Below, piece by piece: positions 58,136 to 60,620 of a DNA stretch of 64,000 nucleotides. The notes under the pieces were generated by a model that was not told the DNA's origin, ran no database searches, and saw only the letters and a list, made by a program, of their open reading frames with translations. Source of the stretch: Exiguobacterium sp. 9-2 (GTDB taxonomy: Bacteria; Bacillota; Bacilli; Exiguobacteriales; Exiguobacteriaceae); the NCBI RefSeq assembly GCF_036287235.1, contig NZ_CP142850.1, positions 1,080,001 to 1,144,000 of the forward strand. The letters are read 5' to 3'. Both the position numbers and the translations under genes were made by a program. The stretch's first letter is position 1. Each line of letters begins with the position of its first letter.

Positions 58136-59149
58136 TTAAGCAACGAACTGGGTGATCCGTTTCAGTTCACGCTCGACAAGGTTCAAGTAGAAGACACCTT
58201 CGATCCGACGATCAAGAGATTGAGCGATCTCATATAGGTTCGTCCGGAGCGCTGCGAGATACGATGCTTCCTCACCAAGGGATTGTCGATGGGCAAATGC
58301 ATAGTGAGCGAGTAGGAACTGGAGATATCCACGATCGGTTAAGAATGGAATCAATTGTTTTTTCTCTTCCATCAACCAGGTATAGTTTGTGTCGTAATAC
58401 ATCTTCGCATATAAATGATAGGGCTCATCGCCACCGGTAAAGAGTGTTTCGCCACGTTTGACTTCTTCAATCAATCGTTCGCTCCAATCAAAACGTTCTT
58501 TTTTGCGACTGAGGAATAATGGCAGGATGTATGGATGAGCCTGATCTGGCATCCGTGAACAACCGCGTTCATGTCGTAGTGCCGCATAAAGAAGTAAGGC
58601 GCGATCTTCGAATCCACGTTCGATTGCATACGTCATCCGGCTGAAGGCTTCACAGGATGGGCAATCACTGAGTTCGTCGCTTGGCGCGTCGACCCATTCC
58701 GATAAATAGTGATCGGCTTGCTCCTCGTCACCAAGCTTGCTGTAAACCATGAAGCTAATATAGTCGCGTGTGCGCGCGAATCCATGCGCGTCACAAAAAT
58801 CGATGAAGCGGTCAAGATCTTCTTCGAGAAGCGATACCGTCACGTCTTCTTGTTCTGCCATATAGATCAAATAGGACTTATAGTTCCAGTACAAATCAAG
58901 TTCTTGTTTTGGAGTCAGTGTCATCTCGTCTTTTCGGATCCATTCCATTAAGAGTGTGAAGGACACGAGAAATGACCGGAAGTGTCCTAGGTCAAATTGA
59001 TTTTGTGAAAACGTCCATAAGGAGAGGAAGCGGAGTGAATCATCAGCTGTTTCCTCAAAGATGGCCCATAAGGCCTCACCGCGTGTAACGGAGGGTTCTT
59101 CTTCCTTTAAGCGAAGATATAAAAGATGGAGTTCTTCTTGAGGGTTCAT
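58136..59149 (-). CDS. Helical-repeat hypothetical protein
   Basis: 337-residue soluble protein, rich in Leu/Tyr/Glu, predicted all helix, with TPR-like spacing (ELDLYWNYKSYLIYMAEQED; YISFMVYSKLGDEEQADHYLSEW). CxxC in LSDCPSCEAF is notable. No family recognised. The open frame extends to 59245, but GGAGGGG precedes the ATG at 59149. Probably in an operon with the VOC/LD-carboxypeptidase gene. Confidence 0.65.
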   Translation of the reverse strand: MNPQEELHLLYLRLKEEEPSVTRGEALWAIFEETADDSLRFLSLWTFSQNQFDLGHFRSFLVSFTLLMEWIRKDEMTLTPKQELDLYWNYKSYLIYMAEQEDVTVSLLEEDLDRFIDFCDAHGFARTRDYISFMVYSKLGDEEQADHYLSEWVDAPSDELSDCPSCEAFSRMTYAIERGFEDRALLLYAALRHERGCSRMPDQAHPYILPLFLSRKKERFDWSERLIEEVKRGETLFTGGDEPYHLYAKMYYDTNYTWLMEEKKQLIPFLTDRGYLQFLLAHYAFAHRQSLGEEASYLAALRTNLYEIAQSLDRRIEGVFYLNLVERELKRITQFVA

Positions 59150-59223
59150 CTGTACCCCTCCTTTCTTATATAAGTATACCACGAGCGTTTTAAGAAATCG
59201 CAATTGAGCGAGGACGGAATAAA

Positions 59224-59263
59224 AAAAGATTCCGAACCCGCTCAATTGCGGTTCGGAATCATT
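59224..59263 (-). terminator. Terminator overlapping the end of the Rrf2 gene
   Basis: GATTCCGAACC / GGTTCGGAATC stem followed on the minus strand by TTTTTTT. Confidence 0.92.
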
Positions 59264-59682
59264 TCAAGTATTTGGGGATGAGTATTAGCTGTCGGATGTA
59301 GCAAATCATGTACTGTGTAACTATTGAGTACTTGATGGAACGCCGCAATGGCATCATCGAAAGCATCACGTGCCGGATTAAGCGAAGGGACCTCGTGAAT
59401 GCCTTCTTGCGGATCGAGAAAATGAACGGTTGGTTCAAACAGTTGTACGACGTCACCGATATGAATTGCATCCGGAGGACCTGCTAAGCGGAAACCACCT
59501 CCACGACCACGGACAGAATCAATTAGACCACTCTGTCCTAAACGATAGACTACTTTCATCAAATGATTCTTAGAAATGTCGTAACAATCCGCTACTTCCT
59601 GGATTCGGACTAAACGATCGGGATTGGCTGCTGCGAACAGCAGGGACCGAATCGCGTAATCCGTATAACGTGTCATGCGCAT
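59242..59682 (-). CDS. Rrf2-family regulator, NsrR-like but lacking cluster cysteines
   Basis: 146 residues. RYTDYAIRSLLFAAANPDRLVRIQEVADCYDISKNHLMKVVYRLGQSG is the Rrf2 winged helix, and GLIDSVRGRGGGFRLA is the wing as in NsrR. The region that carries three Fe-S cysteines in NsrR reads VHFLDPQEGIHEVPSLNPARDAFDDAIAAF here, with none; the only Cys is in the HTH. It probably senses nothing through a cluster, or works as an apo-regulator. ATG choice: 59682, seven bases from TAGGTG. Divergent from the flavohaemoglobin-like gene. Confidence 0.85.
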   Translation of the reverse strand: MRMTRYTDYAIRSLLFAAANPDRLVRIQEVADCYDISKNHLMKVVYRLGQSGLIDSVRGRGGGFRLAGPPDAIHIGDVVQLFEPTVHFLDPQEGIHEVPSLNPARDAFDDAIAAFHQVLNSYTVHDLLHPTANTHPQILEMIPNRN

Positions 59683-59752
59683 TTTCATCACCTACTTAAC
59701 ACACATACTAGGGGGGGACGCAAGCATTTACAACTTTCAATGTGCAAAAAAT

Positions 59753-59798
59753 AAGATGCATTTTAGAGATTGTTTTTGAGAGTGGATTCACGCATAAT
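59753..59798 (+). promoter_or_regulatory. NsrR-like half-site and promoter of the flavohaemoglobin-like gene
   Basis: AAGATGCATTT (59753-59763) matches 10 of 11 positions of the E. coli NsrR half-site AAGATGCYTTT; it lies just before TTGTTT (59770-59775), 17 bases, CATAAT (59793-59798). Confidence 0.45.
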
Positions 59799-59822
59799 GG
59801 ATGGTGAAAGGTAGGTTAAATT

Positions 59823-60620
59823 ATGCATTTCGATCAGGCATTACACCTTTTGCAACAGCTCGGTCCATCGATGGAGCAAAAGGGATTGCGGATCGCGACG
59901 CGCTTCTATGACTCGCTCGAGGCGACGTACGAAGAAGAATTGCGCGCGCTTCGAGAAGCGGGAGCTCAGGACGGAACTCGGGCACTGCGGATTTTACGCC
60001 TGAGTCAATTATTGAATCAGATTACAAACCAGCATGAATCGAGTGAACTGTTTAAATTGATTTTACTGAATGAAATCGATCAAACGAAATCGTTTCTGTT
60101 GACGTACCCGGATATTATCAGTCGTGAAATTCTTCAAGCTATTCAAATCGAATATGACCTTAAAGAAAATGCACCTTTACTTCAAGCATGGGCAATTGTT
60201 CACCATCAACTCGTCGATACATGTCGGCATTTTTGTAAATACCGCCGTGCTGAAAATTGGCGGCAACAAGATATCTTATTGATCGCAGAAGAACATCATC
60301 TAGGAGCCGTCATTGATGAAGCCCGGCATGCGCTTCTAAGTGGTCGAAAAACGACCTTATTGCATGTATCAGCTGAGGAATTGGCAGAACGAATGTTAGC
60401 AAATGTCCTCTCCTTGACGACGAAAGGTATGATCGTCCACCACATTCGTCAAGAAGGATGGGAACAGCAGATGCACGAATTCCTGAAGATGATCACAGCG
60501 AATGATCCGATCGTCTTCGTCAGTGGATCGACGAACTTCATTGCAGACATTCAGCAACGACTCGATCCGCTACCGGTCCTGTTCGGTCCGTTCGTAGCGG
60601 CAAATCAATTACCTTCTTAA
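59823..60620 (+). CDS. Degenerate flavohaemoglobin-like protein
   Basis: 265 residues. By eye it aligns along the length of Hmp (about 400): LGPSMEQKGLRIATRFYDSL with the globin A/B helices; QTKSFLLTYPDIISREILQAI...LLQAWAIVHHQLVDT with the F-H helices; ENWRQQDILLIAEEHHLGAVI with the start of the reductase domain; TTLLHVSAEELAERML with the NAD site; IVFVSGSTNFIADIQQRL and VLFGPF with the end. The haem-binding His appears replaced (QTKSF for KHTSF), the FAD motif RxYS is missing and about 130 residues are lost. Enzyme activity is unlikely; a sensor or binding role is possible. Start after AAAGGTAGG. Confidence 0.6.
   Translation: MHFDQALHLLQQLGPSMEQKGLRIATRFYDSLEATYEEELRALREAGAQDGTRALRILRLSQLLNQITNQHESSELFKLILLNEIDQTKSFLLTYPDIISREILQAIQIEYDLKENAPLLQAWAIVHHQLVDTCRHFCKYRRAENWRQQDILLIAEEHHLGAVIDEARHALLSGRKTTLLHVSAEELAERMLANVLSLTTKGMIVHHIRQEGWEQQMHEFLKMITANDPIVFVSGSTNFIADIQQRLDPLPVLFGPFVAANQLPS

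Follow-up and report, generated by a model that had tools for sequence, protein, structure and literature searches.

In the window (the whole 64,000-nucleotide stretch of Exiguobacterium sp. 9-2 DNA that was analysed), two intact open reading frames diverge from a shared intergenic region and encode a regulator and a 265-residue protein (Table 1). The regulator matches the Pfam Rrf2 family (5.4e-29). Its nearest NCBIfam equivalogs are NsrR and RirA, with both scores under their cut-offs, and the curated CymR model gives 49.4 bits, against a cut-off of 195. The regulator frame extends to an upstream GTG at 59691 (the 149-residue numbering used below); the orthologue in E. flavidum begins at the Met of MRMT, so the ATG at 59682, which gives 146 residues, is the likely start.

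Two of the signals were assigned by inspection. The probable terminator overlaps the stop codon of the regulator and has a loop that exceeds the length allowed by the automated scan. The −35 element TTGTTT of the 265-residue gene was too weak for the automated promoter scan to detect. Downstream of the regulator lies a gene for a helical orphan protein (58136–59161, minus strand) that has no Pfam match and is genus-specific, being present in 18 of 18 genomes and in none from the sister genus.

Table 1 Features of the divergent pair and of a second group of regulators
Feature	Position	Strand	Remarks
Rrf2 regulator, NsrR-derived as judged from sequence	59242–59682	−	146 residues; no cluster cysteines; Asp8 and Arg12 present; one invariant Cys by the helix-turn-helix
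Probable terminator of the regulator	59228–59260	−	Inverted repeat GATTCCGAACC / GGTTCGGAATC, then a T run on the minus strand; read by eye
Putative operator	59753–59777	+	AAGATGCATTTTAGAGATTGTTTTT, conserved; contains the perfect NsrR half-site GATGCAT (59755–59761)
Probable promoter of the 265-residue gene	59770–59798	+	TTGTTT (59770–59775), 17-base spacer, CATAAT (59793–59798); from sequence and conservation
Shine–Dalgarno-like sequence of the 265-residue gene	59807–59815	+	AAAGGTAGG, conserved
Flavohaemoglobin-derived protein, whole	59823–60620	+	265 residues
Globin domain without haem ligand	59823–60242	+	Residues 1–140
Short linker	60243–60269	+	In place of the ~110-residue FAD-binding barrel of Hmp
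NAD(P)-binding-like domain	60270–60590	+	Residues 150–256; Gly-rich motif lost, terminal FGP kept
Second-group regulators	L100:2846–3256 and L100:2090–2518	−	Window genome C1:1707845–1708255; copies in L112, L114 and L115

Homology, predicted fold and altered sites of the 265-residue protein

Taken alone, the 265-residue protein matches no Pfam or NCBIfam family, a PADLOC scan likewise gave nothing meaningful, and a single-sequence search of the PDB returned a marginal globin match (0.027) plus a spurious match to a splicing factor. Because these searches were nearly empty, profiles from the genus were needed. A profile of the 18 orthologues matches Vitreoscilla haemoglobin (1.6e-5) and the R. 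eutropha flavohaemoprotein (6e-4) in the PDB, as well as the globin domains of true Hmp encoded elsewhere in the genus (best, 5e-7). Profile–profile comparison with 13 true Hmp sequences extends from residue 5 to residue 260 across both domains, with a gap of approximately 110 residues (E = 2.1e-10), which bears out the proposal in a preliminary description of this locus that the gene is an hmp shrunk to 265 codons. When the halves were compared separately, the N-terminal half matched the Hmp globin (3.8e-8) and the C-terminal half matched the Hmp NAD domain (1.2e-10), with no match of the C-terminal half to the FAD domain (E = 0.69) and no residues left for the barrel. The protein is 99% identical to its counterpart in Exiguobacterium strain Leaf196.

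Structure prediction, which had been proposed as a check, agrees with these alignments. AlphaFold2 models of the window protein (pLDDT 76, pTM 0.64) and of the E. flavidum orthologue, which is 40% identical to it (pLDDT 80, pTM 0.79), both have an N-terminal globin and, after it, a Rossmann-like domain of the ferredoxin-reductase NAD type. Flavohaemoglobins occupy the top Foldseek ranks for both models (2.8e-6 for the window protein and 1.8e-6 for E. flavidum). The globin parts superpose on an NO-dioxygenase globin with VIA Z scores of 16.1 and 16.2 (rmsd 2.9 and 3.1; 136 and 135 aligned residues, window protein and E. flavidum respectively), and the C-terminal parts superpose on the FAD/NAD module of V. 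cholerae Hmp with Z scores of 12.2 and 13.0 (rmsd 2.8 and 2.4; 115 and 108 aligned residues). Over the whole chain the rmsd to flavohaemoglobins is large, as the two domains take up a different relative position without the barrel. An hhalign pairing that spans the deletion, between RHFC (residues 135–138) and the FAD motif RQYS, was rejected as an artefact; residues 118–138 form one helix in the model.

The sites that hold cofactors in Hmp have been replaced. The proximal haem ligand, His85 (F8) of Hmp, is Thr88 in 17 of the 18 species and Asn in the remaining one; Phe CD1 and Gln E7 are substituted in nearly all species, and the sequence of the F helix has also changed. In all 18 species the FAD motif RxYS is missing, the Gly-rich GGxGxTP has become an AEEHHLGA-like sequence and CGP has become SGS or SGT. 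The loss of the FAD motif and of the haem-ligand His, noted earlier from the window sequence, therefore extends to the whole FAD domain and to every species that carries the gene. Other positions are held constant: Tyr29 (B10) is invariant (18/18), the terminal FGP is nearly so, a new conserved motif, ExSELFKxxLxxEIxQxxSF (residues 72–91), occupies the former haem-proximal segment, and a new invariant pattern, AW..VH..LV.TC.HF.K, runs along the H helix and includes an invariant His127 where Hmp has Tyr126.

The 265-residue protein resembles Hmp in that a globin precedes an NAD(P)-binding-like domain, and in being encoded divergently from an NsrR-type gene; unlike Hmp, it has no FAD domain, haem-ligand His or nucleotide motif. 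Sequence and predicted fold thus identify it as a derivative of flavohaemoglobin Hmp that has shed the FAD domain, and it is most likely free of both haem and flavin. It could instead bind haem through another ligand, such as His127, and act as a haem or gas sensor, and the invariance of both His127 and Tyr29 in all 18 species is compatible with this. We consider such a role improbable, given that His F8, Phe CD1, Gln E7 and the F-helix sequence have all been replaced; we also know of no globin that ligates haem through an H-helix His at the position of Tyr126.

The regulator and its putative operator

The regulator was described at first as free of cysteine and, specifically, as lacking all three cluster cysteines of NsrR. 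The second statement holds for the window protein and its orthologues: 17 have none of the three, and the most divergent orthologue, from E. flavidum (L018:2425–2844), retains one Cys where the cluster loop used to be (PKEGCEEP), a possible vestige that may represent an intermediate in cluster loss. The first statement is wrong, as Cys36 (VADCYDIS), beside the DNA-binding helix, is invariant in 18 of 18 orthologues. This Cys is specific to the orthologue group, the position being Gln or His in the NsrR of the sister genus and in paralogues. Asp8 and Arg12 are also invariant among the orthologues (as D11 and R15), and the recognition-helix region is nearly identical to that of NsrR. In S. coelicolor NsrR, Asp8 ligates the cluster and Arg12 forms a salt bridge, and the two link the cluster to the DNA-binding helix (PMC5411485). 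The regulator therefore shares with NsrR the Rrf2 fold, Asp8 and Arg12, and an NsrR-type half-site at the shared promoter, and differs from it in having no cluster cysteines and one new invariant Cys. It is a descendant of NsrR without the cluster, as the tree described below supports.

Because one invariant Cys is retained, a thiol mechanism is open to the regulator. The main rival to the reading that we favour below is that the regulator works alone, as a thiol-switch repressor acting through Cys36 like S. aureus CymR or SifR, and that it controls the 265-residue protein, whose own role is independent of it, for example that of a scaffold or ligand buffer. Thiol-sensing Rrf2 proteins exist, and the restriction of Cys36 to these 18 orthologues fits such a switch. 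However, a single cysteine could also be structural; we regard this explanation as rather unlikely, although it deserves more weight than the other alternatives.

The putative operator is conserved across the genus and abuts the TTGTTT-17-CATAAT promoter. The half-site GATGCAT, which had been pointed out before, is likewise conserved and lies within AAGATGCATTTTA at 59753–59765, next to the −35 element. It matches one half of the NsrR consensus gATGyAT-N5-ATrCATc perfectly (PMC1274295). The 13-mer AAGATGCATTTTA has one exact copy in the window genome, in the promoter of the 265-residue gene, and a search for a wider regulon found copies with one mismatch within genes, apart from a doubtful exception at L095. 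This single exact operator is most naturally read as serving a local, and possibly autoregulatory, function, and the divergent placement of the genes would fit autoregulation. The operator can be aligned with the operator region of sister-genus hmp; the promoter as a whole aligns with the sister-genus hmp promoter but not with that of the window genome's own hmp. Local alignment to sister-genus hmp promoters beat shuffled sequences in five of nine comparisons (p < 0.01), whereas none of those to true hmp promoters of the same genus reached this level (one was at 0.027); all of these p-values are rough because the promoters were few and hand-picked and the shuffles simple.

Distribution, selection and ancestry of the pair

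The divergent pair has the same layout in all 18 Exiguobacterium genomes, and it is absent from all of the sister-genus genomes that were searched. Outside the genus, no full-length relative of the 265-residue protein was found in 398 Bacilli genomes, genome contigs or plasmids. For the 265-residue gene, mean dN/dS within clades is 0.054 and 0.081, as low as for true hmp (0.072 and 0.096); for the regulator it is about 0.11. We can therefore exclude the explanation that the pair is a decaying relic under no selection: all cofactor motifs are lost, but dN/dS is 0.05–0.08, the 265-residue gene has no frameshift in 18 species, new motifs have become conserved and the promoter is conserved. The preliminary description, which had taken the intact frames as a sign that the pair is kept and had called for tests of conservation and dN/dS, is upheld on both points.

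In the clade of the window (L001–L008), synonymous divergence across 59242–59900 is approximately fivefold below that of the rest of the 265-residue gene (dS of 0.106 for the regulator versus 0.50). The low dS reaches into flanking DNA, which makes recombination a likelier cause than an overlapping feature, and the stretch is probably a recombination tract.

The genus also carries canonical counterparts of both proteins. All 18 genomes with the pair encode an intact true Hmp (379–386 residues in the genus), and a three-Cys NsrR was read in the window genome and in two others (G001 and G007), so a canonical NO system operates in parallel with the pair in at least these three genomes. The genes for true Hmp and three-Cys NsrR are not adjacent in the window genome (C1:1469303 and C1:1755207) or in G001, whereas they are divergent neighbours in the basal G007 (C19:89223–90176), which means that the canonical cassette has come apart in the course of the genus's evolution.

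The presence of true Hmp in every genome with the pair would allow the 265-residue protein to be a regulatory or dominant-negative subunit of that enzyme, and regulation of paralogues by pseudoenzymes is common. Hmp is usually monomeric, however, and the two genes are unlinked and have different promoters; we see little likelihood of this arrangement.

Whether homologues of the regulator keep the same neighbour had been proposed as a test. Orthologues are always beside the 265-residue gene (18/18), which supports the proposal. Cysteine-less paralogues in the same genus adjoin other genes, so cluster loss is not unique to the pair. In a maximum-likelihood tree, the regulators of the pair and the cysteine-less paralogues form one clade (100/99), which joins the three-Cys NsrR of the sister genus (99/95) in a tree that has long branches. 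This tree was built without distant outgroups; a version that included them was distorted by long branches. The sister-genus three-Cys NsrR sits divergent from true hmp. In the Hmp tree, the 265-residue protein forms a long branch for which all attachments are statistically possible, and the genes that flank the pair differ from those that flank the sister-genus cassette; the argument for joint descent as a single cassette is therefore built on the regulator tree, the layout common to both and the promoter. Together these lines of sequence comparison support well the descent of the pair from a divergent nsrR–hmp cassette for NO detoxification.

A putative cofactor-free regulatory pair

With every cofactor site lost but the folds and operator preserved, the simplest function to propose is binding, not catalysis. 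The reading that we favour, with confidence and doubt in about equal measure, is that the pair comprises a clusterless repressor and a pseudoenzyme that serves as its partner or sensor. Both proteins have lost their cofactor sites, the regulator its Fe–S ligands and the enzyme its haem ligand, entire FAD domain and nucleotide-binding motif, and the folds, divergent layout and operator/promoter region have been retained. The clusterless Rrf2 repressor may act locally at the operator at 59753–59777, which overlaps the −35 element of the 265-residue gene and probably the regulator's own promoter. The 265-residue protein would be a haem-free and flavin-free pseudoenzyme that works by binding. The comparisons establish homology, the loss of domain and residues, conservation of the pair and its operator, and purifying selection; repression, the partner or sensor role and the signal are inferred. 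Somewhat more tentatively, we suggest that an NO sensor and its target enzyme jointly became a cofactor-free two-protein transcription switch, with the former enzyme as a sensory or co-regulatory subunit of the former sensor.

Known systems offer analogies for both forms of the favoured reading. The 265-residue protein could pair physically with the regulator in the way that CysK does with CymR: the clusterless Rrf2 regulator CymR of B. subtilis binds DNA in complex with the enzyme CysK (PMC9338935). A clusterless Rrf2 regulator is common to both cases; the regulator described here is not a CymR by score, and the partnership is proposed by analogy. Alternatively, the 265-residue protein could sense a ligand, a role suggested for the non-haem globin domain of RsbR, which is a haem-less globin fold in a signalling protein of Bacilli (PMC6614362). 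Unlike RsbR, the 265-residue protein derives from Hmp and carries an NAD-type domain; a Pfam search for a STAS domain in it found none, and its C-terminal half is NAD-domain-like.

We infer that the pair has been kept for a new function, probably in signalling. Pseudoenzymes and clusterless Rrf2 regulators are each already known. What distinguishes this case is the apparent joint loss of cofactors by a regulator and the enzyme that it controlled, which have stayed paired, and the persistence of cofactor-bearing versions both within Exiguobacterium and in the sister genus. Among open papers, we found neither a flavohaemoglobin that lacks both the FAD domain and the haem ligand nor a pair of this kind. 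The pair may thus be a well-defined natural example in which to study the route from metabolic enzyme to regulator, and to ask what an NO sensor responds to after losing its cluster.

A second group of NsrR-like regulators, these without any Cys, occurs in two copies in some genomes (Table 1). Each adjoins an orphan protein of approximately 142 residues that has no Pfam match, and the group looks like another regulator–partner pair of the same clade.
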